Shown: positions 3,141-25,211 of the stretch, in pieces
Numbering within the stretch: the stretch's first letter is position 1
How the letters are laid out: every line of letters begins with the position of its first letter
Virus record (IMG/VR): IMGVR_UViG_3300025769_000770
Coordinates: 1-25,264 of that record
DNA: 25,264 nucleotides
DNA from: a virus
Strand: one strand, 5' to 3'
Program-made: the position numbers and the translations under genes
The notes under the pieces: generated by a model
The model's database searches: none
What the model was told of the DNA's origin: nothing
What the model saw: the letters and a program-made list of their open reading frames with translations, nothing else

Positions 3141-3598
3141 TCAACTGGTACAGTGAAGTAAGTAGGAGCCTGGCAAAGATACCAGACTGCGTGGCCTACT
3201 TCGACAAGGAACTGTTGGAAGCCAGGAAGCAGTGCAAGATCTACGGCAACCTTGAAAGGGCAAGTGCGGCATTACCCGGAATTGTGGAAGAGAGATTCAG
3301 CCAACTGCAACAGTTAGAAGCGATACTGGAATACCTAAACATAGAACTGAGGAGATTAAGATCAAAAACATTCCGCAAATTCCTGGAGAACTACAACAGG
3401 GCACTGTCCAGCCGAGACGCTGAGAAGTACGTTGACGGTGAAGATGACGTGGTCGACTTAACCAAAATTGTAAACGACTTCGCACTGTTGCGTAACCAAT
3501 GGCTGGGAATAACAAAAGGACTTGATCAGAAGCAATGGCAGATAACCAACATCGTCAAACTGAGGGTGGCGGGAATGGAAGATGCTGACATTAAATAG
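3137..3598 (+). CDS. UvsY-like recombination mediator (tentative)
   Basis: T4 UvsY is a 137-aa protein that loads UvsX onto gp32-coated single-stranded DNA. This 153-aa protein has similar size and alpha-helical character. Its C-terminal half, about residues 85-150, can be lined up by eye with T4 UvsY: a Tyr/Arg-rich helix, then DVVDLTKIVNDFALLRNQWLG followed by a helix ending in IVKLRVAGMED, against UvsY's DVLKVDTSLQYWGILLDF and a helix ending in IQDMRAFEAG. The N-terminal half is a charged coiled-coil-like helix (residues 50-80). It sits in an ATGA-coupled run after uvsX, which suits a mediator. The match is weak, so a lineage-specific protein in the same place is possible. Confidence 0.5.
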   Translation: MINWYSEVSRSLAKIPDCVAYFDKELLEARKQCKIYGNLERASAALPGIVEERFSQLQQLEAILEYLNIELRRLRSKTFRKFLENYNRALSSRDAEKYVDGEDDVVDLTKIVNDFALLRNQWLGITKGLDQKQWQITNIVKLRVAGMEDADIK

Positions 3599-4145
3599 AT
3601 ACGATCTTATTTCATTCCTACCTAAAAATTCACACGTAATAGAAATAGGTGTCGACAAGGGCGACTTTTCAAAACACATTTTAAAAAAATCAAATCCAAA
3701 AAAAATATTTCTTATTGATCCGTGGATCGAGATGCTCGACATTCAAAACGTAAATGAAAGTCATAGTAAAAAATACAACATGGTAAAAGAAATCTTTTCA
3801 AAAGATCCCCGTGTAGTAATTTTGAAAAAATCAAGTGTTGAGGCTTTGACTGACATTGAAGATAGATCTATAGATTGGGTTTACATCGACGGTGACCACA
3901 AATACGAATCTTGCCTCGCAGATCTACAAAATTACGCAAATAAAATAAAAGACGACGGATACATCTGCGGACACGATTGGGTAACAAGACCAAAAAAAGG
4001 GTTTGGTGTAAATCAAGCAGTTGAAGACTTTATAAAAAAATCGGGTTTTGTTTTGTGTGGATTAACCAACGAAGAAAATTTTAAATCCTACGTCATAGCA
4101 AAAAATAAATCAGCAAAAGAAAAATTTTTAAATGAAATCAAATAG
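3582..4145 (+). CDS. Class I SAM-dependent methyltransferase (Methyltransf_24 type)
   Basis: This 187-aa protein has a Rossmann-type methyltransferase fold. Motif I is VIEIGVDKGDF at residues 19-29, which would bind S-adenosylmethionine. The acidic end of strand two is in FLIDPW (43-48), and a metal- or substrate-linked WVYIDGDHKY segment lies at 99-108, followed by GYICGHDW. That IDGDH signature is typical of the small methyltransferases found in sugar and surface-polysaccharide clusters. The start overlaps the end of the UvsY-like gene by 17 bases and the stop overlaps the HAD gene by 14. The DNA is very A/T-rich compared with uvsX, suggesting a separate origin. The substrate is unknown; a sugar is inferred from the glycosyltransferase neighbours. 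Confidence 0.85.
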   Translation: MLTLNRYDLISFLPKNSHVIEIGVDKGDFSKHILKKSNPKKIFLIDPWIEMLDIQNVNESHSKKYNMVKEIFSKDPRVVILKKSSVEALTDIEDRSIDWVYIDGDHKYESCLADLQNYANKIKDDGYICGHDWVTRPKKGFGVNQAVEDFIKKSGFVLCGLTNEENFKSYVIAKNKSAKEKFLNEIK

Positions 4146-4755
4146 AATAATACTTACAGATGTAGACGGAGTGCTTCTTGAATGGGAACATCATTTCACT
4201 AAGTGGATGTTGCAGAAATCCTACTTTGACGACGATGGCAATAGATACTATCCACACAGACTCTTGCCAAACAAACAAGACGAATACGAGATGGCGAAGA
4301 GGTTTGGTTTAACCAAGGATGAGATTCGTGCTCTTATAAGAGAGTTCAACCGTAGTGCCTGGATGGGAACACAGAAGCCCATGTTAGGATCGCAGACCTG
4401 GGTCAAGTTGTTGGCCGCGGAAGGATGGACGTTCATACCCATAACATCACAGACGTCAGACATACCAGCACAGGAGTTGCGTAAGCGGAGACTGGGCGAA
4501 CTGTTTGGGGATCACGTGTTCACAAATTACCATATCCTGGGCACGGGTGCGGACAAAGATTCAGCATTAGCGGAATTCCACGATACCGGGCTGTATTGGG
4601 TCGAGGACAAGCCAAACAACGCTGTAGCCGGGCTCAAATACGGTTTAAAGCCTATATTATTTGACCATTCATACAATAAAGACTTCGAACATCCAGATAT
4701 CATACGAGTAAATAATTGGCAGGAAATACACAAATTATTATCGGGAAGATCATGA
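4132..4755 (+). CDS. HAD-superfamily phosphatase-like hydrolase
   Basis: HAD enzymes hydrolyse phosphate esters through an aspartyl-phosphate intermediate. Motif I is visible as LTDVDGVLL, with the nucleophile Asp10 and general acid Asp12. Motif II is probably the Ser/Thr in PITSQTS (103-108), motif III Lys142, and motif IV the acidic pair Glu158-Asp159 in YWVEDKPNNA. Between motifs I and II lies a helical cap of about 85 residues. The 207-aa length suits small phage HAD hydrolases such as nucleotide or sugar phosphatases. It overlaps the upstream methyltransferase by 14 bases and the downstream glycosyltransferase by ATGA. The substrate could be a nucleotide or an activated-sugar precursor; the sequence does not decide. 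Confidence 0.75.
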   Translation: MKSNRIILTDVDGVLLEWEHHFTKWMLQKSYFDDDGNRYYPHRLLPNKQDEYEMAKRFGLTKDEIRALIREFNRSAWMGTQKPMLGSQTWVKLLAAEGWTFIPITSQTSDIPAQELRKRRLGELFGDHVFTNYHILGTGADKDSALAEFHDTGLYWVEDKPNNAVAGLKYGLKPILFDHSYNKDFEHPDIIRVNNWQEIHKLLSGRS

Positions 4756-5429
4756 AAGTTTACGTAGGTTGGGACAGCAGGGAGGACATAGCGTACCAAG
4801 TTTGCGAGCATTCGATCAAACGCAGAGATCCTGCCGCGGAAGTACATCCACTAAAACAGAACGAGATGCGACAGCAGGGAATCTACACCAGAGACGTAGA
4901 TAAACTGGCATCAACGGAATTCACCTTCACTAGATTCTTCGTGCCTTACCTGAACGATTTCAAAGGATGGGCGGTGTTCTGTGACTGCGACTTCGTGTGG
5001 AAAATACCCGCGAAAGAACTGGAACAGTACTGCGATGACTCCAAGGCCGTGGTGTGCGTACAACACGACTACACACCAGAGGACGGATCCATCAAAATGG
5101 ACGGTCAGATACAGACAGCATACCCTAGGAAGAACTGGAGTAGTATGGTTCTGTGGAACTGCGGTCACGAGAGCAACAAGATGCTGACTCCCGAATTCCT
5201 AAACAAACAGACACCAAAGTTTCTACACAGGTTCTCGTGGTTAGAGGATTCGGAAATTGGTTCACTGCCGCATGCTTACAACTGGTTGGTAGGATGGTAC
5301 AAGGAACCTAAGGATGGTGTCCCAAAGATACTTCACTACACAGAGGGTGGACCATGGTTTGACGGCTACCGAGATTGCGAATACTCCGATGATTGGAAGA
5401 AGGAGGTAATAAACTTATTCAGCGCATGA
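4752..5429 (+). CDS. Glycosyltransferase, GT-A/GT8-like
   Basis: This 225-aa protein resembles small GT-A-fold glycosyltransferases. It opens with MKVYVGWDSREDIAYQV, like many GT8-type proteins. It then has a TRFFVPYL segment (60-67) and an acidic FCDCDF motif whose Asp78-Cys-Asp80 is in the place of the metal- and nucleotide-sugar-binding DxD. The late KILHYTEGGPW segment resembles the conserved C-terminal His region of such enzymes. I chose the ATG at 4752 rather than the in-frame one 36 bases upstream because it gives an ATGA overlap with the previous stop and puts the first beta strand at the N-terminus. The donor sugar and acceptor cannot be read from the sequence. Confidence 0.8.
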   Translation: MKVYVGWDSREDIAYQVCEHSIKRRDPAAEVHPLKQNEMRQQGIYTRDVDKLASTEFTFTRFFVPYLNDFKGWAVFCDCDFVWKIPAKELEQYCDDSKAVVCVQHDYTPEDGSIKMDGQIQTAYPRKNWSSMVLWNCGHESNKMLTPEFLNKQTPKFLHRFSWLEDSEIGSLPHAYNWLVGWYKEPKDGVPKILHYTEGGPWFDGYRDCEYSDDWKKEVINLFSA

Positions 5430-5953
5430 TAAATCTATCAGAACTCAACAAAAAATTTAATACCGACAAGGGAGGTAAGCACTGTTATCTACAGAAATAC
5501 TATCAACCAACATTTTTACCCTTGAGGGAATCCACTAGGAAACTCTTAGAGATAGGTGTATACGAAGGAGCGTCGATAAGATTATGGAGAGAATTTTTTA
5601 TAAACTCTGAGATCTATGCAATGGAAATACTACAGAAAAGGGCGGGCATGTTTAATAACGATGACAAAGTTCATCTCACAATTGGCAGTTCGATTGACAA
5701 AAAGTCTTATCAAAATATACCAGAGGACCTTGACATTGTAATCGATGACGGTTCACACAAACCCGAGGATCAGTATAACACATTCAAAGTCGCTTATGAG
5801 TACCTCAAACAGGGAGGTGTGTATGTGATCGAGGATGTAAGAGACATATCTAGGTTGCAGGAACTACTGGAATCTTACAAGCACAAGACAACGATACACG
5901 ATTTCAGACAGTATGGCGAACCAGACACCGTGATTTTTGAAATTATAAAATAA
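5426..5953 (+). CDS. SAM-dependent methyltransferase, TylF/macrocin O-methyltransferase-like
   Basis: This 175-aa protein has SAM motif I as LLEIGVYEGASIRLW (40-54), an acidic AMEI segment (65-68), and the metal-site-like VIDDGSHKPEDQYNTF (105-120), followed by GGVYVIEDVRD. The DDGSH signature is shared with sugar O-methyltransferases of the macrocin type and related cephalosporin-hydroxylase-like proteins. The N-terminal LNKKFNTDKG resembles the start of that family. The ATG at 5426 gives an ATGA overlap with the glycosyltransferase and is preferred to the in-frame ATG at 5393, which would add 11 residues inside the previous gene. It is the last plus-strand gene before a convergent junction of only 14 bases, where I see no obvious terminator. 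Confidence 0.85.
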   Translation: MINLSELNKKFNTDKGGKHCYLQKYYQPTFLPLRESTRKLLEIGVYEGASIRLWREFFINSEIYAMEILQKRAGMFNNDDKVHLTIGSSIDKKSYQNIPEDLDIVIDDGSHKPEDQYNTFKVAYEYLKQGGVYVIEDVRDISRLQELLESYKHKTTIHDFRQYGEPDTVIFEIIK

Positions 5954-5967
5954 TCGGATGTATCAAA

Positions 5968-6666
5968 TCAGATAGAATTAAAAAGTTTCTTGGCTTCATT
6001 CAACATACCATAATTTGATTGAAATTTTTTTTGACCACTAGCGTGCCCAAAGTAACATTTAATACCATTCTTCTTGTTATATCTCCAATCCATTTTTTCC
6101 ACCCCAACGCCAGACTCAAGCATGGCATAAATTAATTGCTCGTTGTCATCTCCCCTGAGATTACGATAATCTAGATGGGGTTTCATTGTTTCAACAGCAC
6201 ATTGATTCAGCATAAACACACCAGCATTAAATCTATCTCGTTGGAGGACAGCGGGATCAAACTTTTCAAGACACGTGTCTATGGCACGATCCTTGTGATA
6301 TGCCATCGTGTTTTTATTTGCTATCCTATCGTGCACAGGTTTGAAAGTTTCCAACGAAGGGTATTCCTCAAAAACATTGGGAGAATTGGGCCACACAATT
6401 ACATCAGTATCGAGATATAGTATATGATCGTACTGCCTCCACCATGCCTCATTAAAAAAAAGGTCAAATCTTTCAAATGTGGGGTGTATCCAGTTTATTT
6501 TAGGAGACGTACACAACTTGTAATCAACACCAATTTTTTCAGCATATTGTCTTACAGATTTTGTAGAGAATATATAAAGTTCTTCATTAACTCCTATTTG
6601 ATTGTAATCAGGGTTGGCATAACCATCTGTCGAAATAAAAAACTGGACTATTAGACATCGAGCCAT
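5968..6666 (-). CDS. Glycosyltransferase with DTD motif, minus strand
   Basis: This 232-aa protein looks like a GT-A-fold enzyme. A LYLDTDVIVWPN segment holds Asp86-Thr-Asp88, the DxD motif that would bind metal and nucleotide sugar. Before it lie a YAEKIGVDYKLC segment and a run of aromatic residues (FERFDLFFNEAWW). After it comes a HxG-type segment near the C-terminus (KCYFGHASGQKKF), a region that often touches the nucleotide. The start codon directly abuts the stop of the capsule-like gene upstream on the same strand, so the two form a minus-strand operon. The gene is A/T-rich. It resembles the plus-strand DxD enzymes in the island only at motif level. Confidence 0.8.
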   Translation of the reverse strand: MARCLIVQFFISTDGYANPDYNQIGVNEELYIFSTKSVRQYAEKIGVDYKLCTSPKINWIHPTFERFDLFFNEAWWRQYDHILYLDTDVIVWPNSPNVFEEYPSLETFKPVHDRIANKNTMAYHKDRAIDTCLEKFDPAVLQRDRFNAGVFMLNQCAVETMKPHLDYRNLRGDDNEQLIYAMLESGVGVEKMDWRYNKKNGIKCYFGHASGQKKFQSNYGMLNEAKKLFNSI

Positions 6667-7479
6667 TTATAATATTCCTTTGTCCATTAGTATCTCAACT
6701 GCTGTTCCGTTCTCGAACTCCTCGGGTGTGAACTGTTGGTAAGCCAGGCTGTACAGCCACGGTTCTGGCTCTCCGTAGTAAGGGTTCTCTATGTCTGATA
6801 GCTCTGTGCTTGCCACGTCCGTCGCAAAACTTTTCTCATGACAGAATACCGGAATCCCTTGGCACGTGGCCTCCACTGCCGCTATGGAACAACTGGTAAC
6901 CACACACCAGGCCTCCTTGAGGTCCTCAGATAGGGGTACCTTGGCCTCGCTTGGTCCTGACGTACCCCTGCCCCTAGGCTTGTGTCGAAGTCGGATTGGT
7001 CTGTCTGTGTATCTCTTGATTTGTTCTATGGTTTCGTTGGTCCAGTTTGGTCTATCTAGGTAGTCGTGCATGCCCACACTACTGGGACAAACCAAAATGT
7101 ATTTGCCGGTGAAGTTAGGAGCCTTGATCTTGATTCCAAATTTTTCAAATCTATCTGCCTTGCAGTTTTTCAAGTAAGGCACATGTATAGCATTCCTGCA
7201 GACACGCCAATAATGATTGTTTGGTCTTAAATTACTGTTGTCAAATCTCCCAAAGTAGGGAGTGTCAGTGAACCAGAAGTTATGATTTCGTGCTTCCAAT
7301 TTCTTCACCATTTCTCTGTTGTTGCCAACGAATCCCCAGAACATGCTGTTGTTCACCGGATCTGTTTCTACAGCGTTGTTTAACTTTGTGACCTGATCTG
7401 GCCAGGATCGTTCAACGCCATTGAACACTTCCCATGCTTTACTTTTTTTATTATTAAATGGTGCGTAGATGGTAAGCAT
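6667..7479 (-). CDS. Capsule-synthesis-like glycosyltransferase family, copy A
   Basis: This 270-aa protein is one of four related proteins in the island. The shared core is a TDRPIRLRHKP segment (158-168), then an AWCVVTSCSIAAVEATCQGIPVFC segment (190-213), an Asp-Ile-Glu-Asn-Pro segment (229-233) and a SLAYQQFTPEEFENGTA segment (244-260). A cryptic Ser/Asn-rich motif followed by an Ala/Glu helix and GIPVF is what capsule polysaccharide synthesis (KpsS-like) and CDP-glycerol transferase-like GT-B enzymes show in the nucleotide-binding half. Copies A and B also share a weaker N-terminal half with an FTDTPYFG / MDHGYFT segment. A Shine-Dalgarno-like AGGA lies 8 bases upstream of the ATG. Family function is inferred; activity is not shown. 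Confidence 0.75.
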   Translation of the reverse strand: MLTIYAPFNNKKSKAWEVFNGVERSWPDQVTKLNNAVETDPVNNSMFWGFVGNNREMVKKLEARNHNFWFTDTPYFGRFDNSNLRPNNHYWRVCRNAIHVPYLKNCKADRFEKFGIKIKAPNFTGKYILVCPSSVGMHDYLDRPNWTNETIEQIKRYTDRPIRLRHKPRGRGTSGPSEAKVPLSEDLKEAWCVVTSCSIAAVEATCQGIPVFCHEKSFATDVASTELSDIENPYYGEPEPWLYSLAYQQFTPEEFENGTAVEILMDKGIL

Positions 7480-7585
7480 CTAAAAGGTCCTTTGGTTGTT
7501 GCGCAAGTATCTTGCTGGTAAATGTTTCTACTGCGTCTTTAAAACGTGGTGTAAGAAAATTATGACAGTTTGAAAATAATAACAT
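7454..7585 (-). CDS. Possible 43-aa protein upstream of copy A
   Basis: A short open frame on the minus strand begins at an ATG (complement of 7583-7585) and ends at a TAA (complement of 7454-7456), overlapping the start of copy A by 26 bases in another frame. The product begins MLLFSNCHNFLTPRF and continues with a helical KDAVETFTSKILAQQPKDLLDAY segment, which looks protein-like rather than random. If real, it would couple translation into copy A and fill nearly all of the space between the divergent genes. There is no strong ribosome binding site. It could also be a remnant of a longer gene, or chance. Confidence 0.4.
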   Translation of the reverse strand: MLLFSNCHNFLTPRFKDAVETFTSKILAQQPKDLLDAYHLRTI

Positions 7586-7607
7586 AAAGGTTATTTTACA
7601 GTATAAT
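7579..7607 (+). promoter_or_regulatory. Possible sigma70-type promoter before the GT61 gene
   Basis: TATAAT lies at 7602-7607. With a 17-base spacer, the -35 position reads ATAACA (7579-7584), which matches TTGACA at four of six positions. The -10 box ends only 7 bases before the ATG at 7615, so transcription would begin at or next to the start codon and give a nearly leaderless mRNA. It sits between divergent genes, where a promoter is needed. The complementary strand also has a TATACT here that could serve the minus genes. Confidence 0.4.
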
Positions 7608-7614
7608 TATTCAT

Positions 7615-8697
7615 ATGCCAACAGTAAAGAACATCGATTCTATACAATATTTTCTCAACAGGTTTCCTACCATAGACAGTGGATATGATTACACCGTCAA
7701 TTATCACAGTGCCGCAGAATCAAAATTCACATCGTTGCCTACCTTTGTGGCAGAGTTTTTTGACTGCAGGATTCACGCCTGCCCTTTATTGATAACAAAT
7801 GAGGATCATATGATAACGGATCATGTTTGGAACCTTACGCATCAGAGAAAACACAAACCCCAAAAGACCCACGGGTTATGGCGAGAGTGGAGCGACACCC
7901 TCGATATAAATCTACCCAGTGTTTCGAGAAGGTTCAATGAGACATATACCTATGTATGGTTACCTATAGATGAGGAGAGCGCCAACAACCCATGGCATGT
8001 ATGGATAGATGTAATCTCTAAATTCCGACTGGTGCAAAGAAGATGGTCCATGGACTTCACCAAATATGTTTTTGTGTTATCAAACGAAAGTACATATTTT
8101 ACAAAAGTGTTGGAAGATTTTTTTCCTGATCTAAAGTACATGGTAGTGCCAACAAGGGAAGTTTGGCAATTCAAACACCTTATAGTACCCAGCCTGAGTA
8201 ATCACACAGACGGAGTCATAACGCCTCATTTACCCCCGTGGATACGGAAGTTGAAAAACAAAATGAAGGTCAACTCTGAAAGAAAAAGAAAGATTTTTAT
8301 TTCTCGAGATGACGCGAAATCCAGGAAACTCCTCAATGCAGAAAAATTACTGATGGCGCTCAAGGGGTGGGAAACGGTGACCCTACAATCGCTAACAATC
8401 CGAGAACAAGTCAAATGCTTCTCAGAGGCCTCACATATAATTTCAACACACGGTGCTGGACTTACAAATTTGCTTTGGTGTGAACCTGGAACAAAGGTGA
8501 TAGAAATACAGGACATCAAAATGATTGATAAGAAAGTTTATCCAGTCCTGTCTCATCATCTACGTATAAATCACAAGGTCCATGTGGCGAAAACAGTGCC
8601 AATAAAATTAAACGGACCAAAACCAACGGGAACAAAAAAATGGCAGATGGTGGATTTTGAAGTTGACGTTCCTAGCCTGATGGATGACTTAGATTAG
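7615..8697 (+). CDS. GT61 (DUF563) glycosyltransferase
   Basis: This 360-aa protein carries the hallmark of the DUF563/GT61 family: RKIFISRDDAKSRKLLN (225-241), then a helix with TIREQVKCFSEASHIIS, and HGAGLTNLLWCEPGTKVIEI (279-298). In known members such as plant xylan xylosyl- and arabinosyltransferases and bacterial surface-polysaccharide enzymes, this C-terminal region is the GT-B nucleotide-sugar half. No membrane segment is visible, so it should be a cytoplasmic enzyme of the infected cell. It is the first gene of a plus-strand run to 13038. The gene is somewhat A/T-rich in its first half. Donor and acceptor are unknown, but the family call is firm. Confidence 0.9.
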   Translation: MPTVKNIDSIQYFLNRFPTIDSGYDYTVNYHSAAESKFTSLPTFVAEFFDCRIHACPLLITNEDHMITDHVWNLTHQRKHKPQKTHGLWREWSDTLDINLPSVSRRFNETYTYVWLPIDEESANNPWHVWIDVISKFRLVQRRWSMDFTKYVFVLSNESTYFTKVLEDFFPDLKYMVVPTREVWQFKHLIVPSLSNHTDGVITPHLPPWIRKLKNKMKVNSERKRKIFISRDDAKSRKLLNAEKLLMALKGWETVTLQSLTIREQVKCFSEASHIISTHGAGLTNLLWCEPGTKVIEIQDIKMIDKKVYPVLSHHLRINHKVHVAKTVPIKLNGPKPTGTKKWQMVDFEVDVPSLMDDLD

Positions 8698-8699
8698 AT

Positions 8700-9530
8700 A
8701 TGGCAAGTGAAAAACCAATTGCAGGAATACACACAACCAAACCACGGACACAGAGGTACGTTGACGCATTTGTAAAAGGCACACCAGGTACACATAAAAT
8801 CTATCATTTCAGAGATGTAAAACAACTGCCCGACGAGAATCTAACAATGTATGGAATACTTGCGGGTTCCGGAGAGCTTTACAAACGGTGCCAGGAAGAA
8901 CACAGGGATTTCTATTACATGGATCACGGCTACTTCACAAACGCCCATGACCATCCACACTGGCTGAGGATAACAAAGAACAAACACTGCCAAAACAAAC
9001 TACACGACGTACCAACAGACAGGTACGATAAGTATTTCAAGCAGGACATAAAACCATGGAATACGGACGGAAGCAAGATCCTGGTTTTACCGCCCACCAA
9101 TGCCATAGCAAATTTCTTCGGAATTGAAAACTGGTTAGAGCACACTCTGAATACATTAAGAAAGAACACAGACCGTACAATAGATATACGTGAAAAACCA
9201 TACAACCCAACAGTAAAAGTCGACCACATGGGAGCCACGGTCAAGGTGGATCGACCGACCAAACACCAGGGCAATATAAATTGGAATGACTATTACGCTA
9301 CTGTCACATATAATTCCAACACCATGGTGGCGAGTTTGGCAAACGGTGTTCCTGTTTTCTGTGATCCAATAAACAGTGCGGCGTCACCGATATCAGAAAC
9401 GGATTTCTCCAGGATAGAGACACCTAAATACGGAGACAGGATTGCTCTATTCAGCAGTCTAGCGTATAATAACTGGAGTTTGGAAGAAATGGCCAACGGC
9501 ACGGCGTGGAGGATGTTGAATGAGAGTTGA
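8700..9530 (+). CDS. Capsule-synthesis-like glycosyltransferase family, copy B
   Basis: This 276-aa protein is the closest relative of copy A by eye. It shares NTDRTIDIREKP (156-167), YYATVTYNSNTMVASLANGVPVFC (198-221), an FSRIETPKYGDR segment (236-247) and SLAYNNWSLEEMANGTAWRML (253-273). The two also match weakly over the N-terminal half (a DHGYF segment at 75-79, a PTDRYDKYF segment at 106-113, and KILVLPPTNA at 127-136). In B the Ser/His seen in other copies before the helix is replaced by YNSNT. It starts 2 bases after the GT61 stop and its end overlaps copy C by 11 bases, so it is within one transcript. Confidence 0.75.
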   Translation: MASEKPIAGIHTTKPRTQRYVDAFVKGTPGTHKIYHFRDVKQLPDENLTMYGILAGSGELYKRCQEEHRDFYYMDHGYFTNAHDHPHWLRITKNKHCQNKLHDVPTDRYDKYFKQDIKPWNTDGSKILVLPPTNAIANFFGIENWLEHTLNTLRKNTDRTIDIREKPYNPTVKVDHMGATVKVDRPTKHQGNINWNDYYATVTYNSNTMVASLANGVPVFCDPINSAASPISETDFSRIETPKYGDRIALFSSLAYNNWSLEEMANGTAWRMLNES

Positions 9531-10506
9531 GATATTCCGTAGAACAGTCAAGGACAGGAGGAAAGGCAACAGTTGGGAACTGCTGTACCATCTCAAAGAG
9601 GGAATCGAGTCAGCGGGTGACGAAGCCGTGATCGTCAATGAGCACATGACTGGTGAGACAAGGCCGGGCGAGATGGAGCCAACGGCGGACATGGCGGCCA
9701 TGTTTGGTTACGGTGGTGACAAGCAGATGCACCACACCAAGGGCAGGAGAAGGATTCTGGCCAACAAATGCCGTGAGAAGAAAATACCACTGATAACATT
9801 TGATGGCGGATTGCTGTCAAGTTTTGGAAACGTTTCCACATCATCAGAACATCATTTCAGAGTTTCCTTGTACACCCCCATGAACGATGGTGACTTCCTA
9901 TCAGATAATTCTCCAAACGATCGTTGGGAGATGATGAAGAAAAAATTCAAGGTACGATACGAACCGTGGAGGAAATCAGAACAAGGCGACCCCATACTGT
10001 TCGTCCTACAACCCAAAGATAATTGGAGCATGAACGAACTCGACCCAATAGCGTGGTTCAATGGGGTCTATGAAAAACTGCGACCCGCCACTGACCGCCC
10101 CTTCATAGTTAGGCCGCATCCAAATCACGTGGCCAGCATAGTGGAAAGGAGGAACGAGTTGCCAGAGGACATCGAACTACAATACACACAGAAGCACTTC
10201 GGTGGTGATGAGAAAAAGCACTACAGATTCAACTTCCAAGAGGTTATAACTAACTGCCATGCTGTTGTTACTCACAATTCTACTGCCAGCGTCGACTCTT
10301 GCGTTCGTGGAATACCTACCTTTTGTACCTCAGATCTTGCACTTTGTTGGCCTGTAGCGAACAAGGACCTCAACAACATCGAGACCCCAGAACGACCAGA
10401 CAGGACACAGTGGCTCAACGATCTGGGATACAAGATGTGGAGCATTAATGAGATAAAGGACGGCACTGTGTACAAAAGATTCAAAACAAAACTAGGACTA
10501 GAATGA
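9520..10506 (+). CDS. Capsule-synthesis-like glycosyltransferase family, copy C
   Basis: This 328-aa protein is the longest copy. Its N-terminal domain is different from A and B: it starts MRVEIFRRTVKDRRKGNSWELL and includes an LITFDGGLLSSFG segment (91-103), which could be a GT-B N-terminal domain. The shared C-terminal core is ATDRPFIVRPHPN (190-202), AVVTHNSTASVDSCVRGIPTFC (248-269), a LNNIETPERPDRTQW segment (284-298) and LGYKMWSINEIKDGTVYKRF (302-321). The RPHPN and THNST motifs make this the clearest link to KpsS/CDP-glycerol-transferase-like GT-B proteins. It overlaps copy B by 11 bases and the next glycosyltransferase by ATGA. Confidence 0.78.
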   Translation: MRVEIFRRTVKDRRKGNSWELLYHLKEGIESAGDEAVIVNEHMTGETRPGEMEPTADMAAMFGYGGDKQMHHTKGRRRILANKCREKKIPLITFDGGLLSSFGNVSTSSEHHFRVSLYTPMNDGDFLSDNSPNDRWEMMKKKFKVRYEPWRKSEQGDPILFVLQPKDNWSMNELDPIAWFNGVYEKLRPATDRPFIVRPHPNHVASIVERRNELPEDIELQYTQKHFGGDEKKHYRFNFQEVITNCHAVVTHNSTASVDSCVRGIPTFCTSDLALCWPVANKDLNNIETPERPDRTQWLNDLGYKMWSINEIKDGTVYKRFKTKLGLE

Positions 10507-11423
10507 CATCATTGACCGTCGTAACTACGTTCCCACCAAACCGCTGGACGGCATATGCCCGTAGGATGCTAGAAAGTCACATTGAGTTCTGGCCCGATGA
10601 CGTGGAAATACATGCCTACTACGAGCAATACAGACCCGACATGGCAGATAAAAAGATTAAATTCATAAACATAGAAGAGGTTAATCCAGACCTGGTCAGT
10701 TTCAAACAGCGCCACAAAGATGACCCGGTTGCCAATGGTGAAACACAGGAAGTACCAGATGGTGTGAGGAGGAATCCAGCGGCTGGATCCAATGATCGGG
10801 GCAAGGGATCATATCTATGGGACGCTGTAAGATTTTCACACAAGACTTTCGCAGTTGACCATGCGATTAAAAATAGCAAAACTGATTATGTTCTATGGTT
10901 GGACGCTGATACCTATACATTCAGAAAGATCACTAAAAAATTTGTCACAGATCTTTTGCCTAGCGACAAACTATTAAACTTCCTGGGAAGGGGTGACAAA
11001 TACCCAGAATGTGGATGGGTTTGCTACAACACCCGACATCCTAAAATTAGAGAGTTCATGCGGTACTGGACGGACATGTACAGGAACGACACAATCTTCA
11101 ACGAGTTAGAGTGGCACGACAGTTACCTGTTCTGGCAGTGCGTTAAAAGAATTGCACCCAATGACGGAGTCGACATAGGCAAAGGTGCTGGAGTTAAAGG
11201 CCATCACGTCTTCATAAACAGTGTACTTGGGAGTTACATTGATCACATGAAGGGCAAAAGGAAAATCAAAGGAAAAAGTAGTAAGAGTGATCTACGCGGA
11301 GATCGAAACGAGGACTATTGGAAAGGTGTGGAGAATTATGATCCTTTTGGTGGTGTCGAGTTCGATCCTAAACAAGCCGCCGACATAATAAGCAAAACGG
11401 ATAAAGGTATTCAAGGAAACTGA
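10503..11423 (+). CDS. Glycosyltransferase with DAD motif
   Basis: This 306-aa protein has a GT-A-like layout. It opens with SLTVVTTFPPNRWTAYARRML, a first strand and helix in which the nucleotide would sit. Next is an HAIKNSKTDYVLWLDADTYTF segment whose Asp134-Ala-Asp136 is the DxD-type motif. A substrate-side segment, FLGRGDKYPECGWVCYNTRHP, follows, then an EWHDSYLFWQC segment that may supply the catalytic acid. Near the C-terminus is a GVKGHHVFINSVLGSY segment, like the conserved late His of such enzymes. The C-terminal 50 residues are Lys-rich and probably flexible. It lies between copies C and D and overlaps both (ATGA and TGATG), so it is co-translated with them. Confidence 0.8.
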   Translation: MTSLTVVTTFPPNRWTAYARRMLESHIEFWPDDVEIHAYYEQYRPDMADKKIKFINIEEVNPDLVSFKQRHKDDPVANGETQEVPDGVRRNPAAGSNDRGKGSYLWDAVRFSHKTFAVDHAIKNSKTDYVLWLDADTYTFRKITKKFVTDLLPSDKLLNFLGRGDKYPECGWVCYNTRHPKIREFMRYWTDMYRNDTIFNELEWHDSYLFWQCVKRIAPNDGVDIGKGAGVKGHHVFINSVLGSYIDHMKGKRKIKGKSSKSDLRGDRNEDYWKGVENYDPFGGVEFDPKQAADIISKTDKGIQGN

Positions 11424-12295
11424 TGAAACTGGAAGTTTGGACTGAACACGGGCCACTGAACTCAAAACCCATATTCGATGCTTTCATACAAAGCCTCCGC
11501 GATGCCGGGGATCAAGTGTACTTGAACAGATCGGCCGACGCAGACGTGGCTGTTATATGGAGTGTGCTGTGGCGTGGAAGGATGCAGGGATACAAAAAGA
11601 TATGGGACGAGTATAGATCACGAGGCAAACCCGTGATAGTGATAGAGGTAGGCGGACTGAGGAGGAATCAAAGTTTCAAGATAGGCATAAATGGCATAAA
11701 CCGTGATGCTGATTTCGCCGACCAGGAATTCGATGACAAGAGATGGCCGCTGTTCAATCTCACACTCCGACCATGGAAACCATCGGGAGAACTGATCGTA
11801 ATTTGTGGGCAACATGACTCTTCGGAACAATGGCGTGGCATGCCCAAGATGGAGAACTGGATCAGACAGCAGATAACGAACATAAGGAAATACACCACAC
11901 GTCCGATCTTGGTCAGACCTCATCCACGCAACCAGATATCGTTCAACGAAAAGGATTTTGAAAACGTAAAAGTCAGGATGCCTAAACGTGACCACAGGAC
12001 CTACGATGACACAGACTTCAGGGCAACACTGGGGAGGACCTGGGCCGTGGTCAACCATTCTAGCAACCCCGCCATGGAAGCGGTCATACGAGGCATACCG
12101 GTTTTCGTGTCGGCATCGAGCCTGTGCCATGATGTGGGGAACACGGAGATCAGTGACATCAACAGTCCCGCCATGCCCAACAGGATCACATGGGCACAGC
12201 GTTTGGCATACACTGAATGGTTCGAAGATGAGATAAGAATGGGACTGCCATGGCAGAGGATAAAGAAAAGGTTAGAGGAGAGATACCTGCGATGA
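11423..12295 (+). CDS. Capsule-synthesis-like glycosyltransferase family, copy D
   Basis: This 290-aa protein shares the family core: YTTRPILVRPHPRN (157-170), AVVNHSSNPAMEAVIRGIPVFV (208-229), ISDINSPAMPNRITW (243-257) and RLAYTEWFEDEIRMGLPWQRI (260-280). Its N-terminal domain begins MKLEVWTEHGPLNSKPIFDAF and contains DVAVIWSVLWRGRMQGYKKIW and VIVIEVGGLRRNQ, a plausible Rossmann-like half that differs from A and B and partly recalls C. The NHSSN stretch and RPHP motif are the most standard capsule-synthase-like forms of the four copies. It overlaps its upstream neighbour by one base (TGATG) and the next gene by ATGA. Confidence 0.78.
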   Translation: MKLEVWTEHGPLNSKPIFDAFIQSLRDAGDQVYLNRSADADVAVIWSVLWRGRMQGYKKIWDEYRSRGKPVIVIEVGGLRRNQSFKIGINGINRDADFADQEFDDKRWPLFNLTLRPWKPSGELIVICGQHDSSEQWRGMPKMENWIRQQITNIRKYTTRPILVRPHPRNQISFNEKDFENVKVRMPKRDHRTYDDTDFRATLGRTWAVVNHSSNPAMEAVIRGIPVFVSASSLCHDVGNTEISDINSPAMPNRITWAQRLAYTEWFEDEIRMGLPWQRIKKRLEERYLR

Positions 12296-13038
12296 AAGAA
12301 GTGAAGACAGGGCGGAGGAACGAGATACAACCCATAGAATGGCAACCTTACCGAGGCGAGACCATAATCCTCAACACCATCATCCGGAAAGGTCAAAGGA
12401 TACAAGAGACGGCATTCTACGAGGACAAGGTCAAGGCTGTGCCTCGTGGCAATGCCTACTGCATAGGAAATGGCCCGTCACGGAAAGGTTTCGACCTAGA
12501 CAAACTTAAACCCACGGGCCAGACATATGGTTGCAACGCACTGTACAGGGATTTCATGCCAGACTTCATATTCAGCGTGGACACAAAGATGACCGTCAAA
12601 ATGTGTGAGGACGAGGTTGGATTGACAACCATACACTACGCACCATCGTTGGAGGTGAACAGGAAGCAGAACAGAGGCATGCTACATCTAATACCACACA
12701 ACCCACACTGGATCTCAGGCAATGCCGCGTTCTGGACAGCGGGTGTTCATGGACACAAGAACATCTATCTCATAGGTTACGACTTCAGAGAATACGGCAA
12801 GGGACAACTCAACAATATCTACCAAGACACAGAATGCTATGGTGAGAGACACGGAGGAGACATATTCGAGGGTTGGTTAGGGACCTTTAGAAAGATGTTG
12901 AAAATGAGGCCTTACGTGAACTACACCATCGTTCACGACAACCCCCCGGATTTCCTAAATCATCTGCAGACAGGAGTGGACCTAGGCAACAGCAAGATTA
13001 TTAGTTACAGTGAGTTCAAAAAGGTTTTAACACCTTGA
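12292..13038 (+). CDS. DUF115/GT42-like protein (possible sialyltransferase-type enzyme)
   Basis: This 248-aa protein has a glycine-rich CIGNGPSRKGFDLDKLKP segment (57-74), followed by GCNALYRDFMPDFIFSVD. Later comes ISGNAAFWTAGVHGHKNIYLIGYDFREYG (141-169). The same order, GNGPSL then an Asn near a short helix, then SGxxxxxxAxxxGxxxIYLxGxDF, is what I recall for the Campylobacter Cst-II type GT42 sialyltransferases and the DUF115 family. It fits a glycan island. I chose the ATG at 12292 because it gives an ATGA overlap with copy D; an in-frame ATG 42 bases earlier would add 14 residues inside copy D. The stop overlaps the convergent SprT-like gene by 12 bases. The sugar donor is unknown. Confidence 0.6.
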   Translation: MKEVKTGRRNEIQPIEWQPYRGETIILNTIIRKGQRIQETAFYEDKVKAVPRGNAYCIGNGPSRKGFDLDKLKPTGQTYGCNALYRDFMPDFIFSVDTKMTVKMCEDEVGLTTIHYAPSLEVNRKQNRGMLHLIPHNPHWISGNAAFWTAGVHGHKNIYLIGYDFREYGKGQLNNIYQDTECYGERHGGDIFEGWLGTFRKMLKMRPYVNYTIVHDNPPDFLNHLQTGVDLGNSKIISYSEFKKVLTP

Positions 13039-18174: not shown

Positions 18175-18400
18175 GATTGATCTAGAGATAGCGGACAGTT
18201 TGGATTTCGAAGACGGAGATTGTGCAGTGGTCATAAAAGAAGATGGATCGATCGGAAGGGTAATAATGCCGGACATAAACAGAAATGTTTTGGAATCGGA
18301 AGGATACAGGAAACTTTTAGACGTGTTGGAAGTCTTACAGCCAGGATCACGTGACAAAATGATACAACACGCCGAAAAGGGAAAAGGGAGTATGCACTGA
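18167..18400 (+). CDS. Small hypothetical protein with TTG start
   Basis: This 77-aa protein begins at TTG (18167), overlapping the previous stop by 8 bases, with no in-frame ATG near. The product starts SKIDLEIADSLDFEDGDCAVVIKEDGS and continues to GRVIMPDINRNVLESEGYRKLLDVLEVLQPGSR, a neat alpha/beta-like sequence. Its stop and the next start share one base (TGATG). The family is not recognised. Its fixed place directly before the mini DnaE-like gene hints at a linked role. Confidence 0.65.
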   Translation: MSKIDLEIADSLDFEDGDCAVVIKEDGSIGRVIMPDINRNVLESEGYRKLLDVLEVLQPGSRDKMIQHAEKGKGSMH

Positions 18401-18990
18401 TGCCTGATGTGGACATAGATTTCTTTGACAGAGACGGGGTGTTGAAACTTTTCAAGCATACGCCGGCATCGATAATCAAAGACGGCAAGACCGAGAAACA
18501 CAAGACGGGGGTATACTTCCATGCGGTGCCTGAACATCCTGTGACAGGAAACTCCTCGTTGGATTACAAGAAAGCCGAGAATCGAGGTTACTTCAAGATC
18601 GACATGCTGAATGTAAACATATACAAGGAAGTGAAATCAGAACAGGAACTTGTGGAACTCATGATACAGGAGCCCGACTGGGACATGCTAAAGGATCCAA
18701 AGACTGTGGAGAACCTGTTCCACCTTAACGGACACTTCAACATAGTTTCCAAACTAGAGCCAAAGAACATCGAACAACTGGCCGCCGTGTTGGCCATAAT
18801 ACGTCCCGCTAAGAGGCACTTGATGTACAAGGACTGGCAGGACATAATGAAGGAAGTGTGGACAAAGCCCACAGACGGATCCTACTTCTTCAAGAAATCA
18901 CACGCCATAGCCTACGCACAGGCAATTGTGGTACAGATGAATCTGATCACCAGAGCTAAATATAGTTTTGATGCTACATCAAAAAACTAA
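18400..18990 (+). CDS. Miniature DnaE-like protein (196 aa)
   Basis: The protein begins MPDVDIDF, the palm motif of bacterial replicative polymerase DnaE. Later segments follow the order of DnaE motifs: a DYKKAENRGYFKIDML stretch (55-70), where Asp68 aligns with the third catalytic Asp of DnaE; an LEPKNIEQLAAVLAIIRP stretch (119-136) like the LxPxxxxDLxALxALxRP of DnaE; and FFKKSHAIAYA (163-173) like its FNKSHAAAYA. All three carboxylates (Asp3, Asp5, Asp68) are present, yet the protein is less than a fifth of normal DnaE length (about 1,100 aa). PHP, fingers, beta-binding and OB regions are missing. It could be a reduced polymerase, a clamp or primer-related accessory, or a non-catalytic relic. 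Similar short proteins may occur in related marine phages. Confidence 0.7.
   Translation: MPDVDIDFFDRDGVLKLFKHTPASIIKDGKTEKHKTGVYFHAVPEHPVTGNSSLDYKKAENRGYFKIDMLNVNIYKEVKSEQELVELMIQEPDWDMLKDPKTVENLFHLNGHFNIVSKLEPKNIEQLAAVLAIIRPAKRHLMYKDWQDIMKEVWTKPTDGSYFFKKSHAIAYAQAIVVQMNLITRAKYSFDATSKN
18966..18984. repeat. Perfect 8-bp inverted repeat (hairpin) covering a start codon
   Basis: TTTTGATG (18966-18973) and CATCAAAA (18977-18984) are exact reverse complements separated by CTA. In RNA they could form a short A/U-rich hairpin at the end of the mini DnaE-like gene. The ATG of the 51-aa ORF (18971-18973) lies inside the left arm. There is no U tract after the stem on either strand, so it is a poor classical terminator. 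It may instead regulate that start codon or protect the mRNA end. Confidence 0.45.
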
Positions 18991-21357: not shown

Positions 21358-22789
21358 ATACACATTTGATGTACAGAAACTTTATATAGAGATGCTACTA
21401 GCAGATGCGGAATCATTTGCTAGGGCACAGAACATATTCAAGCCCGAGTCGTTTGATCGTAAACTACAACCCATAGCCAAGTTCGTCAAGGACTACATGG
21501 ACGAGTACAAGGTCATGCCAGATGTGGAACAGGTCAATGCCAAGCACGACATCAAACTGAAGTCGGCAAAGGACCTGGATCCAAGCCATTTCAATTGGTT
21601 GCTGGACGAGTTCGAGACATTCTCGAGACACAAGGCACTGGAACAAGCGATACTACAATCCGCAGACCTGTTGGAGAAGGGCGACTACGCTCCCGTCGAG
21701 GACATGGTCAAGGAAGCGGTCAACGTGGGACTGACCAGAGACCTTGGCACAGACTACTTTGAGGATCCCAAGGGAAGACTTGAGGCCCTCAAGGACAACA
21801 ACGGACAGATCAGCACTGGCTGGCAGAACCTAGACAAGAAACTGTTTGGCGGTTTCAACCGCGGAGAACTGAACATCTTTGCTGGTGGATCAGGCGCAGG
21901 AAAGAGTTTGTTCCTACAGAATCTTGCGGTGAACTGGGCACAGGCTGGTCTGAACGTTTGTTACATATCATTCGAGTTGAGTGAACAACTGACAGCGATG
22001 AGACTGGACGCAATGATGACCAACATTCCGACCAAACGGGTTTTTCCAGAGATAGACAACGTGGAGATGAAGGTCAAGATGTTGGCCAAGAAGTCTGGAC
22101 TGCTACAGATCAAATACCTGCCAAGTGGTAGCAACGTGCTGGACGTAAGGACGTATCTCAAGGAGCTGGAGCTCAAATCAAAGAAGAAGATAGACTGTAT
22201 CTTGATCGACTACCTGGATCTCATGATGCCCAAGAGCAAGAAGATATCCCCAGCGGACTTATTCATCAAGGACAAGTACGTGTCTGAGGAACTAAGGAAC
22301 TTGGTCGTGGAGAAACAGTGTGTGTTGGCCACAGCATCACAGTTGAACAGGGCATCTGTTGAGGAGATAGAGTTCGATCACAGCCACATATCAGGCGGAC
22401 TGTCCAAGATACAGACAGCAGACAACGTGATAGGTATATTCACATCGAGGGCAATGAAGGAACGTGGTAGGTATCAGATACAGTTCATGAAGACCAGATC
22501 CAGTTCGGGAGTGGGACAGAAGGTTGATCTGGAGTTTGATGTGGACAGTCTAAGGATAAGAGACCTAGCGGATGATCCGGAATACAAACAGTTTGACAAG
22601 CAGAGGAGCACCATATACGATAACCTCAAGAAGACATCTAAGGTAACAGGCGATGGAACACCCAAAGATGCCAGAGACGATGTGCCAGACCCCACCAAAG
22701 GCGACACGATAGGCAAAGTCAAGGCCACAGTGGAAGGCGGCAAACTGAGACAACTGCTCAACGAGTTACACTCAGATGAAGAACAGTAA
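21350..22789 (+). CDS. 41: Replicative helicase gp41-like (DnaB family)
   Basis: gp41 is the hexameric 5'-to-3' replicative helicase that unwinds the fork and works with gp61. The 479-aa protein has an N-terminal helical domain (1-140), then STGWQNLDKKLFGGFNRGELNIFAG, Walker A GGSGAGKS (179-186), YISFELSEQ (205-213), Walker B IDCILIDYLDLM (281-292), an ASQLNR segment and an HISGGLSKIQTADNVIGIF segment, as in RecA-fold DnaB proteins. The C-terminal tail is Lys/Asp-rich and flexible. It follows gp61 with an 8-base overlap and overlaps nth by 14 bases. Confidence 0.93.
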   Translation: MAEYTFDVQKLYIEMLLADAESFARAQNIFKPESFDRKLQPIAKFVKDYMDEYKVMPDVEQVNAKHDIKLKSAKDLDPSHFNWLLDEFETFSRHKALEQAILQSADLLEKGDYAPVEDMVKEAVNVGLTRDLGTDYFEDPKGRLEALKDNNGQISTGWQNLDKKLFGGFNRGELNIFAGGSGAGKSLFLQNLAVNWAQAGLNVCYISFELSEQLTAMRLDAMMTNIPTKRVFPEIDNVEMKVKMLAKKSGLLQIKYLPSGSNVLDVRTYLKELELKSKKKIDCILIDYLDLMMPKSKKISPADLFIKDKYVSEELRNLVVEKQCVLATASQLNRASVEEIEFDHSHISGGLSKIQTADNVIGIFTSRAMKERGRYQIQFMKTRSSSGVGQKVDLEFDVDSLRIRDLADDPEYKQFDKQRSTIYDNLKKTSKVTGDGTPKDARDDVPDPTKGDTIGKVKATVEGGKLRQLLNELHSDEEQ

Positions 22790-23459
22790 CGACATAGAAC
22801 ACATCTATGAGAAGTTGAGTGCTCTATATCCAAACTACTCAAACAAGAAACCCAAGGCAAAGATACACTCAAAAGCATACACCAGTCTCGTAGGCGTGAT
22901 GCTGTCAGCACAGAGTCAGGACAAGAGAACCGCGGTGGCTTGTAGGCAACTATTCGCACTGGCAGACACACCCGAGGACATGTTGAAACTCACACAGGAA
23001 GAGATCATAGAGGCCATCCGACCCGCAGGACTGTTCAACGCCAAGTCAAAGAACATACTAGCGACCAGCAAGATGCTTTTGGATAAGTTTGACGGACGTG
23101 TGCCCAGCACCCAGAAAGAACTGATGACACTACCCGGTGTGGGTCGTAAGAGCTCTGACATCGTTATGAGGTTCGTTTTTGGGGAACCACACATAGCGGT
23201 GGACACACACGTGTTCAGGATGTTGTGGAGACTGGGCTGGGCGGATTCATTAGACGAGGGCAAGGCCTCCATAACAGTCAACAACACCACACCCGGCAAG
23301 TACAAGTACGGTGCCCACATGTGGTTAATAACACACGCCAAGTTGGTGTGTAGATCTAGATCACCGTTGTGTGATCAATGTGTGATCAGAGCCGTGTGTG
23401 ACCAGAGGAACATAGACACTCCAAAGAATCGACTGCGTCAAAAAATCGCCACTTCATAA
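22776..23459 (+). CDS. nth: Endonuclease III-like DNA glycosylase/AP lyase
   Basis: Endonuclease III removes oxidised pyrimidines and cleaves at abasic sites. This 227-aa protein has the helix-hairpin-helix LPGVGRKSSDIV (119-130) with the catalytic Lys125, and VDTHV (142-146) with catalytic Asp143. The iron-sulphur cluster spacing Cys192-X6-Cys199-X2-Cys202-X5-Cys208 is exactly that of E. coli Nth. An earlier LVGVMLSAQSQDK segment (38-50) also matches. The length is close to the E. coli enzyme's. It overlaps gp41 by 14 bases, so it is made with the primosome. All key residues are present. Confidence 0.95.
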   Translation: MKNSNDIEHIYEKLSALYPNYSNKKPKAKIHSKAYTSLVGVMLSAQSQDKRTAVACRQLFALADTPEDMLKLTQEEIIEAIRPAGLFNAKSKNILATSKMLLDKFDGRVPSTQKELMTLPGVGRKSSDIVMRFVFGEPHIAVDTHVFRMLWRLGWADSLDEGKASITVNNTTPGKYKYGAHMWLITHAKLVCRSRSPLCDQCVIRAVCDQRNIDTPKNRLRQKIATS

Positions 23460-23519: not shown

Positions 23520-25211
23520 ATGAAAGACAAGGAACTGAACGACATAACAAGGCTGTACGATAGATTCATCAGGCAATGTCCAGGCACAGAAGAATACACG
23601 CATAGGCTAGCCGAGGAGACTCGCATCATCCTTCAACTACGTTTCGTAGACTACTTCATACAAATATGTGACATCATAGCAATGACCCGAGACATACCAC
23701 ACATGACACGTGGTAGCGCTGGATCGTCATTGGTCTGTTACCTATTGGGCATAACGGATGTGGACCCAGTGGAGTGGGACATACCAGTGGCTAGATTCCT
23801 CAACCCCAATCGAGACGACCTTCCCGATGTGGACATAGATTTTCCCCACCACAAACAGGAAGAGGTCATGAAGAGGATCTTCAAGAAGTGGCCGGGACGC
23901 AGTGCTAGGATATCCAACTACGTGCTCTACAAGGATAAGTCAGCGCGACGTGAAGCGGCCAAGCGACTTGGAGTCAAGGGCAACCTACCCCGCAGGTTCA
24001 CATACGATTCGTTAGGCATCGACACAAAGGAGGCCAAACGTATCGAAAACAAACTGAAAGGCAAGAAGAGATGCATATCAAAACACTGCGGAGGAATACT
24101 GATGTTTCAAAGACAACTACCAAAAAGCCTGTTCACGGCGGAGAACCAAATACTGCTAGACAAGAACGAAGTAGAGGACCTAGAACACCTGAAGGTGGAT
24201 ATTTTAGCCAATCGTGGTTTGTCACAACTCATAGAGATAGACCCCACGCGGAAACTGACGGACTATCCCGAAGAGGATTCCGCTACTTCGGAACTTTTGT
24301 GCAGGGGGGACGTGCTGGGAGTGACACAGGCAGAGAGTCCGGCCATGCGGAGACTGTTCAGGGCGATAAAACCAAAGAGTGTTAGGGACTGTGTGTTCGG
24401 GACGGCACTGATAAGGCCAGTGGCAGTGTCCGGACGCAGGAAGGCGACCATGTTCCATGACTGGAGCAAGGAACGTATGAGTGACAGCATAGTGTACGAG
24501 GATGATGCCATAGATAGGATCGCAGAAGTGCTGGGCATAGACAAGTACGAAGCGGACATGTACAGACGTGCATTCGCAAAGAAGAACGAAGAAAGGATCA
24601 TGGAGTTTATATCGAGACTCGGTGACCATCCACGCAAGGACGAGATCATAACAATGCTACAGTCGTTATCTGGGTTTGGATTGTGCAGGGCACACGCTGT
24701 GAACCTGGGCAGACTGATATGGGCACTAGCATACCAAAAAGCACACAACAAAGAAAAATTCTGGCAGTCTTGCTTGAAGCACTGCCAAGGATCATACAAG
24801 CGTTGGGTTTACAGGACTGAGGCAAAGCGTGTGGGCATAGAAGTTGTCACACCTAGCAAGTCAGACAAGTGGGACACACCGGAATTCCAATACAGGAAGT
24901 ACGGTTGGTGGAGCCAGGAAGATTTCATGCCAGGAATGTATGTCAGAGAGTTGTACTTGGACAAGGTCGAATTCGCAGGTATGATAGCCAATGGCAGAGT
25001 ATTCAGGGGGGACAAGGGAAGATACGTGACATTCCTCACGTTGGGTGTGGGTAACGGACAATACATCGATGTCACTATAAAACGAGCGTTTGCGTATAGC
25101 GATCATGATGTCGTTTGGGGACAGGGAACAATAAGACATTCTAACAATTCTGATTTTGTGGAATGCTTTGACTCAAAAGGATTCAGATTAGAGAAATATA
25201 TTTCTAATTGA
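23520..25211 (+). CDS. DnaE-type DNA polymerase core without PHP domain
   Basis: This 563-aa protein matches bacterial DNA polymerase III alpha from about one third in. Visible are TRGSAGSSLVCYLLGITDVDP (63-83), like GRGSGAGSLVAY; ARFLNPNRDDLPDVDIDF (91-108), holding catalytic Asp103 and Asp105; HLKVDILANRGLSQL (223-237), with the third Asp227; GDVLGVTQAESPAMRRLF (263-280); and SGFGLCRAHAVNLGRL (384-399), like the NKSHAAAY region. A later EFAGMIANGRVF segment (484-495) resembles the OB domain. The PHP domain is absent, so the protein is about half normal size. It is a candidate polymerase that may work with a clamp. A relic or repair role is also possible. Confidence 0.85.
   Translation: MKDKELNDITRLYDRFIRQCPGTEEYTHRLAEETRIILQLRFVDYFIQICDIIAMTRDIPHMTRGSAGSSLVCYLLGITDVDPVEWDIPVARFLNPNRDDLPDVDIDFPHHKQEEVMKRIFKKWPGRSARISNYVLYKDKSARREAAKRLGVKGNLPRRFTYDSLGIDTKEAKRIENKLKGKKRCISKHCGGILMFQRQLPKSLFTAENQILLDKNEVEDLEHLKVDILANRGLSQLIEIDPTRKLTDYPEEDSATSELLCRGDVLGVTQAESPAMRRLFRAIKPKSVRDCVFGTALIRPVAVSGRRKATMFHDWSKERMSDSIVYEDDAIDRIAEVLGIDKYEADMYRRAFAKKNEERIMEFISRLGDHPRKDEIITMLQSLSGFGLCRAHAVNLGRLIWALAYQKAHNKEKFWQSCLKHCQGSYKRWVYRTEAKRVGIEVVTPSKSDKWDTPEFQYRKYGWWSQEDFMPGMYVRELYLDKVEFAGMIANGRVFRGDKGRYVTFLTLGVGNGQYIDVTIKRAFAYSDHDVVWGQGTIRHSNNSDFVECFDSKGFRLEKYISN

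Follow-up and report, generated by a model that had tools for sequence, protein, structure and literature searches.

A family of putative KpsC-like glycosyltransferases in the glycan island of a T4-like marine phage

Why should a phage carry several diverged copies of what appears to be one glycosyltransferase? The question is raised by IMG/VR virus record IMGVR_UViG_3300025769_000770, of which positions 1 to 25,264 – the whole stretch analysed, hereafter the window – contain four intact open reading frames (ORFs), A to D. A reading made from the sequence alone had taken these for duplicates of a capsule-synthesis-like enzyme whose acceptor or donor domains had been swapped, so that a glycan could be varied combinatorially. 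The window (44% G+C) stems from a marine virus of bacteria and, judged by gene content, is a 25-kb piece of a T4-like phage; the four ORFs lie in a glycan island of about 9 kb flanked by uvsY and helicases. They are of two types, HP (carrying R-P-H-P) and KP (carrying R-x-K-P):

6667–7479, minus strand: copy A, 270 amino acids, KP-type; R-H-K-P, S-x-A-A-V-E-A nucleotide-loop motif, no Q..D at the QXXXD position
8700–9530, plus strand: copy B, 276 amino acids, KP-type; R-E-K-P, no Q..D
9520–10506, plus strand: copy C, 328 amino acids, HP-type; R-P-H-P, invariant L-Q-P-K/S-D-N-W-S-M (QxxD, not QXXXD)
11423–12295, plus strand: copy D, 290 amino acids, HP-type; R-P-H-P, G-Q-H-x-x-S-x-Q-W (Q present, Ser at the nucleophile position)

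The four are one protein family. Single BLASTP comparisons gave E-values of 6e-28 (A–B), 6e-25 (C–D), 4e-19 (A–D) and 3e-18 (B–C). When each protein was split at the start of its C-terminal Rossmann domain and scored against 300 shuffles per pair, the C-terminal halves stood out in all six pairs (z = 18–38). Among the N-terminal halves the closest pair was A–B (z = 10.9); C–D was borderline (z = 4.1; score 44, best shuffle 45), B–C reached 2.2, and A–C, A–D and B–D were at chance. The C-terminal motif order – TDRP.x.R.xP, V-T/N..S....E/D....G.P.F, I-x-x-P, L.Y...E..G – is kept across 63 relatives. On each of these points the sequence-only reading, which had proposed a single family with this motif order and with differing N-terminal halves, was borne out, and nothing indicated that the C-terminal halves lack a common fold. 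Its count of four is right for the window but incomplete, since longer sister contigs hold a fifth member, E.

The family is widespread, and its members are maintained as distinct genes. A hidden Markov model built from A to D recovered 803 ORFs in 237 loci (lowest score 32.8 bits), a figure that is not a phage count given that loci overlap on some contigs. Clustering at 40% identity gave four large orthogroups, one each for A, B, C and D, plus five singletons; the B orthogroup splits into subgroups at 50–60% identity. The idea that B is a rare accessory gene, to which the first three matches pointed, was discarded: peptide patterns had missed B orthologues. Among 80 sister contigs picked solely for carrying C – a choice that biases counts towards intact islands – the order A(−) B(+) C(+) D(+) holds in 66. 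Among the cases listed from the remaining 14, either the absent gene is a fragment or C is close to the end of its contig; six contigs without D stop 0–2.7 kb past C, as against a C–D gap of 0.9–5.6 kb. A and B are separated in the sisters by 62 bp or by 1.2–2.8 kb.

Evidence on the history of the copies came from trees built separately for the two halves of the protein. Each yields every orthogroup, and both divide most deeply into {C, D, ct7QV12, CcrSC gp170} versus {A, B, two Mosig genes, gp171}, where ct7QV12, CcrSC and Mosig are other phages; support (SH-aLRT/bootstrap) is 91.9/98 for the N-terminal half, 78.6/82 for the C-terminal half and 87.1/98 for the whole protein. In both half-trees Mosig_00185 groups with A and Mosig_00187 with B. 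The agreement indicates that both halves of each gene travelled together, and the separate placement of the two Mosig orthologues that the A–B split is older than the parting of, or gene exchange between, this lineage and the Pelagibacter phage. Median dN/dS (nonsynonymous over synonymous substitution rates) is 0.05–0.07 in all groups, an approximate value from pairs with dS up to 2; purifying selection is thus strong throughout. By phylogeny and clustering, then, A to D are old, separate orthogroups, ancient paralogues. A recent origin by duplication, with acceptor or donor domains exchanged, as the conserved C-terminal and diverged N-terminal halves might suggest, is accordingly rejected, the half-trees being congruent even in their Mosig placements; in KpsC, moreover, acceptor specificity resides in the N-domain (PMC10148158), which accounts for the contrast between the halves without any swapping. 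Combinatorial variation of a glycan by these genes is contradicted also by the constant gene order and low dN/dS, and we regard it as scarcely credible. What does vary between phages is the set of accessory genes lying between the family copies.

Predicted structures point to an affinity with capsule enzymes. The AlphaFold (AF2) models of A (predicted local distance difference test 90) and C (87) are both two-domain and GT-B-like, and the top Foldseek match in the PDB is in each case KpsC (A: E = 2.7e-7, template-modelling (TM) score about 0.5; C: E = 4.8e-8, TM 0.51), with WbbB and KrkA next; named matches in BFVD include a 'capsule polysaccharide biosynthesis protein' of Tetraselmis virus 1. 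Aligned by hhalign with KpsC of E. coli Nissle, the phage profiles bring the Q..D region, the RPHP/K/R-x-HP motif and the S..EA..G loop into register, at probabilities of 40–79% against 0.5–1.4% for two unrelated window proteins; the moderate values arise because templates held one or two sequences. Weak matches to DUF6716 (PF20471, a putative glycosyltransferase) come from 25 of the 63 family members; those of A, C and D, at about 12 bits (cut-off 27), fall on the nucleotide-loop motif, and B has none. Capsule_synth (PF05159) matches none of A to D and, weakly, three of eight members of the type of E and ct7QV12, E itself scoring 17.5 bits under a cut-off of 20; no member with a score shown reaches either curated cut-off, and a sequence search of solved structures with two family profiles (A2, A8) returned nothing relevant. 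TagF-like (CDP-glycerol glycerophosphotransferase) proteins were absent from the 50 best PDB matches of A and of C and from the Pfam matches. The label capsule-synthesis-like therefore survives at the level of the superfamily, whereas the suggested comparison with TagF found no support.

Catalytic motifs refine this picture. Retaining transferases of 3-deoxy-D-manno-oct-2-ulosonic acid (Kdo) are marked by QXXXD, the covalent nucleophile, and (K/R)XHP, which binds cytidine monophosphate (CMP) (PMC10148158, PMC12887879). RPHP is present in C and D, in all aligned orthologues, and in E; A and B carry R-x-K-P instead, kept in A and found as R-E-K-P in most B rows. The exact QXXXD occurs only in E, in ct7QV12-type relatives and in relatives from Aestuariivirga. 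Both residues, Q and D, are missing from A and B (A reads PSS, B PPT/PPS), C has an invariant QP(K/S)DN and D has GQHxxS. Models and profile alignments together place A to E in the KpsC-like superfamily of retaining ulosonic-acid transferases; since the nucleophile motif was looked for in A to D and is absent, we do not file them as GT99, GT107 or GT140, nor can any of the four count as a proven Kdo transferase.

Copy E, found in 5 of 14 longer sister contigs searched, lies 12.6–28 kb downstream of D and combines QXXXD with RPHP: its 'QKVGDASLRG' aligns on KpsC 'QVEDDASIKT' (QKVGDASL on QVEDDASI of KpsC-C) and its RPHP on KPHP. Kinship with the other copies is evident from a profile–profile E-value of 1.1e-58 between the E/ct7 set and the A–D set, with the ct7QV12 row common to both. 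In two sisters (L244, L245) E sits about 2.2 kb past a 563-amino-acid frame equal in length to the polymerase gene that ends the window at 25211, so that E is expected just beyond the window's right edge; it is absent from at least two contigs with more than 20 kb past D (G006, G009). The virus carries four copies and, with E, probably five. E has a DUF6071 protein and methyltransferases as its flanking genes; genes of the UDP-glucose dehydrogenase and epimerase types lie about 4–6 kb off, and in L244 two radical S-adenosylmethionine genes adjoin it (L244:6930-9016). Two contigs of the 'Rickettsiales bacterium MED657' metagenome-assembled genome (MAG), L256 and L257 (NZHE01000027/28), share a near-identical gene layout, each with an E orthologue, and probably represent phage sequence placed in a bacterial MAG by binning.

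Comparison with characterized enzymes shows both kinship and distance. KpsC (GT107; PDB 6MGB/6MGC/6MGD, 8FUW/8FUX) is a dual-module retaining beta-Kdo transferase of capsule synthesis. With it the phage proteins share the predicted GT-B fold, the (K/R)XHP motif (C, D, E), the S..EA..G nucleotide loop, an acidic EDGF-like loop (D/E-x-G-Y/L) and, in E, QXXXD; unlike it they are single-module proteins of 270–330 amino acids without capsule-export neighbours, A to D without QXXXD and A and B with R-x-K-P, and the likeness in sequence is at profile level only. The retaining Kdo transferases WbbB (GT99 domain) and KrkA (GT140), next-best structural matches of C (9YFX, 5FA0, 8CSx), have these hallmarks in common with the phage proteins but are larger and have a confirmed Asp nucleophile (D232 and D193), whereas A to D have no Asp in the canonical place. 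KpsS/KpsS1 (GT118 pseudaminyltransferase; PMC12887879) belongs to the same superfamily but bears no close sequence relation to the phage copies, KpsS of Nissle giving a weak hhalign match on the nucleotide loop; it shows that CMP-nonulosonic acids besides Kdo can serve as donors (PMC12887879).

Closer relatives occur in the phages Mosig, CcrSC and ct7QV12, where the neighbourhoods differ and the copies number one or two instead of four or five. Pelagibacter phage Mosig EXVC030M carries the orthologues of A and B (genes 00185 and 00187, unannotated or hypothetical); these two KP-type copies were found there and no HP-type copy. Caulobacter phage CcrSC has one HP-type (gp170) and one KP-type (gp171) gene adjoining a tail-fibre gene, and phage ct7QV12 one copy with full QXXXD and RPHP. 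Members from the window, E and the relatives in Mosig, the Caulobacter phage and ct7QV12 resemble one another in profile over their full length and have invariant columns in common. An alphaproteobacterial MAG contig (L263, JAGXRD010000102) presents portal, head protein, head–tail adaptor, two tandem copies (5674–7259) and later a tape measure; a Methanoperedens MAG contig (JAHFDG010000019), apparently a phage or provirus in an archaeal bin, has terminase and head–tail adaptor followed by four tandem copies (L262:3776-7238). The arrangement of an HP-type gene with a KP-type gene immediately after it is seen repeatedly, in gp170/171, L262:3776-5376 and L263:5674-7259, each member of a pair sitting in the matching half of the tree. 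A chromosomal relative lies near a GT8 gene in Aestuariivirga. No family protein scanned matches PHROGs, Pfam or NCBIfam above curated cut-offs, and on this basis, together with the literature outside subscription sources, the family appears to be new. The ct7QV12 gene itself is unannotated (L236:4792-5613, MW202713), the tblastn label 'putative pyridoxal phosphate-dependent enzyme' on the match arising only because the gene shares 22 bp with the one that follows; its protein found no match among genome contigs, whereas a search with profile A8 worked.

The copies do not stand alone. The rest of the island comprises:

3582–4145, plus strand: second Methyltransf_24-type methyltransferase, the island's left border (PF13578, 3.7e-15)
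4716–5429, plus strand: D-x-D-containing phrog_28018 protein (8.7e-56)
5393–5953, plus strand: Methyltransf_24-type methyltransferase (PF13578, 2.3e-8; phrog_21658)
5968–6666, minus strand: GT8-like protein adjoining A on the same strand (PF01501, 8.2e-4, under cut-off; phrog_28746, 2e-23)
7615–8697, plus strand: GT61 glycosyltransferase in the A/B interval (Pfam PF04577, 1.8e-24), kept in sister contigs (cluster of 73 members)
10503–11423, plus strand: GT2-like (GT-A) protein in the C/D interval (PF00535, 0.0089, under cut-off), kept in sisters (cluster of 74 members)
12250–13038, plus strand: phrog_30607 protein at the island end, overlapping the end of D (1.8e-22)

Genes overlap by 11 bp (B/C), 4 (C/GT2-like), 1 (GT2-like/D) and 46 (D/next gene). 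The GT61, GT2-like and phrog_30607 proteins are constant partners across sisters; the last shows weak MptE-like (PF01973, 0.047) and alpha-2,3-sialyltransferase (phrog_4603, 0.026) similarity. Varying partners include FkbM methyltransferases, an epimerase/GDP-mannose dehydratase-type enzyme, a glutamine-dependent Asn synthase, a DegT aminotransferase and a 2-oxoglutarate-Fe(II) oxygenase. A homologue of the 4716–5429 protein lies at L262:12067-12774 (6.4e-49), in the archaeal-MAG phage locus with four tandem family members, and the GT61 protein found no match among isolated phages. DUF6071 proteins (PF19547) lie beside E (L244:4946-5734) and, under the cut-off, on the minus strand in the A/B interval of many sisters (L084:5403-6065); they may be a functional partner.

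We favour the view, at a probability of roughly 60%, that A to D and E are single-module GT-B glycosyltransferases of the KpsC-like superfamily, each a separate enzyme within a single fixed glycan-assembly island. In this proposal the nucleotide of an activated sugar would be bound by the conserved C-terminal Rossmann domain and the acceptor recognized by the diverged N-terminal domain. For the RPHP types C, D and E the donor could be a CMP-ulosonic acid; the RxKP types A and B probably use another donor or another mode of phosphate binding. Each copy may add one sugar in one linkage, in sequence and alongside the GT61, GT2-like and GT8-like proteins and the methyltransferases, the product probably being one defined sugar chain from a fixed toolkit and not a shuffled, variable one. 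The acceptor would be cytoplasmic and most likely a virion protein, our first choice because relatives in CcrSC, L262 and L263 sit among virion genes. Several observations weigh against this proposal: TM-scores to KpsC are only about 0.4–0.5, QXXXD is missing from A to D, no enzymatic activity is known for any family member, a CMP-sugar synthetase (PF02348) was not found in 14 sister contigs (a weak absence, these being fragments), and the island lies among replication and recombination genes and not structural ones, its own neighbourhood giving no virion target.

With domain exchange set aside, the most serious competitor is that the island alters the host's surface glycan – lipopolysaccharide O-chain or capsule – via lipid-linked precursors and so blocks superinfection by competing phages. 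Such a role has been proposed for the glycosyltransferases of pelagimyophages (PMC7029224), and Mosig, a Pelagibacter myophage, has the A and B orthologues; precursors of surface glycans are the usual substrates of KpsC-type enzymes (PMC10148158), the island adjoins replication genes, and the Aestuariivirga relative lies near a GT8 gene. Yet the island holds no initiating lipid-carrier transferase, in a crude hydropathy scan it showed hardly any transmembrane protein and neither flippase, polymerase nor exporter, and the CcrSC, L262 and L263 relatives lie inside virion structural modules; we consider modification of the host surface unlikely, though by some way the best of the alternatives. 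Glycosylation of the phage's own DNA against restriction, after the manner of T4 hypermodification, would suit an island amid T4-like replication genes, and T4-like phages encode DNA glucosyltransferases (PMC6024577). But a gene of the thymidylate-synthase/dCMP-hydroxymethylase family was not found in the 14 fragmentary sister contigs, itself a weak absence; the folds matched are those of capsule enzymes, and the accessory genes (FkbM, epimerase, aminotransferase) suggest that an oligosaccharide is made: a DNA target is very improbable.

A different objection concerns A and B themselves, which could be non-catalytic partners in heteromers with HP-type copies (B with C, for example), aiding acceptor binding. 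The recurrent adjacency of HP then KP genes in CcrSC, L262 and L263, the 11-bp overlap of B and C, and the absence of Q, D and His from KP-type copies are all in keeping with this. Against it, Mosig yielded two KP-type copies and none of HP type, the gp170-type partner likewise has no Asp, and retention of R-x-K-P in A and nearly so in B, at dN/dS of ~0.05–0.07, fits an active nucleotide-binding site. An auxiliary role for A and B is therefore improbable, if less so than a DNA target.

A further conjecture, tentative and in our judgement less likely than its negation, is that members of the KpsC superfamily have diverged in chemistry inside a single phage genome: E would retain an Asp nucleophile and CMP-dependent double displacement, C and D the CMP site only, and A and B, with His replaced by Lys and the nucleophile lost, would use another donor and mechanism. 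The HP/KP division would then represent an undescribed glycosyltransferase family or pair, mainly phage-borne and often encoded as adjacent HP and KP genes. The double displacement of retaining Kdo transferases is described as so far unique among glycosyltransferases (PMC12887879) and their evolutionary origin has been called unclear (PMC10148158); complete, partial and replaced catalytic motifs in a single phage lineage would provide natural intermediates for how the mechanism arose or was lost. Genes that carry only a hypothetical label in Pelagibacter and Caulobacter phages also gain testable functions from the analysis, which points as well to phage glycan assembly without export machinery.

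The remainder of the window is largely a T4-like replication and recombination module, with a single-strand binding protein, UvsX, UvsY-like and SprT-like proteins, helicases and a primase (helicase and primase called from sequence) and PolIII-alpha-type polymerase pieces. Its UvsX is most similar to that of the very large phages Phosso of Sinorhizobium (68%) and Atu_ph07 of Agrobacterium (67%), which on this one gene would be true kin of the whole phage. Two PolIII-alpha (DnaE)-type pieces at 18400–18990 and 23520–25211, both with a PDVDIDF-type motif, depart from the otherwise T4-like character of the module and suggest a split or duplicated replicative polymerase that may replace T4 gp43. 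Between them, at 22776–23459, is a reading frame resembling an endonuclease III (HhH-GPD) DNA glycosylase, a call made from sequence.

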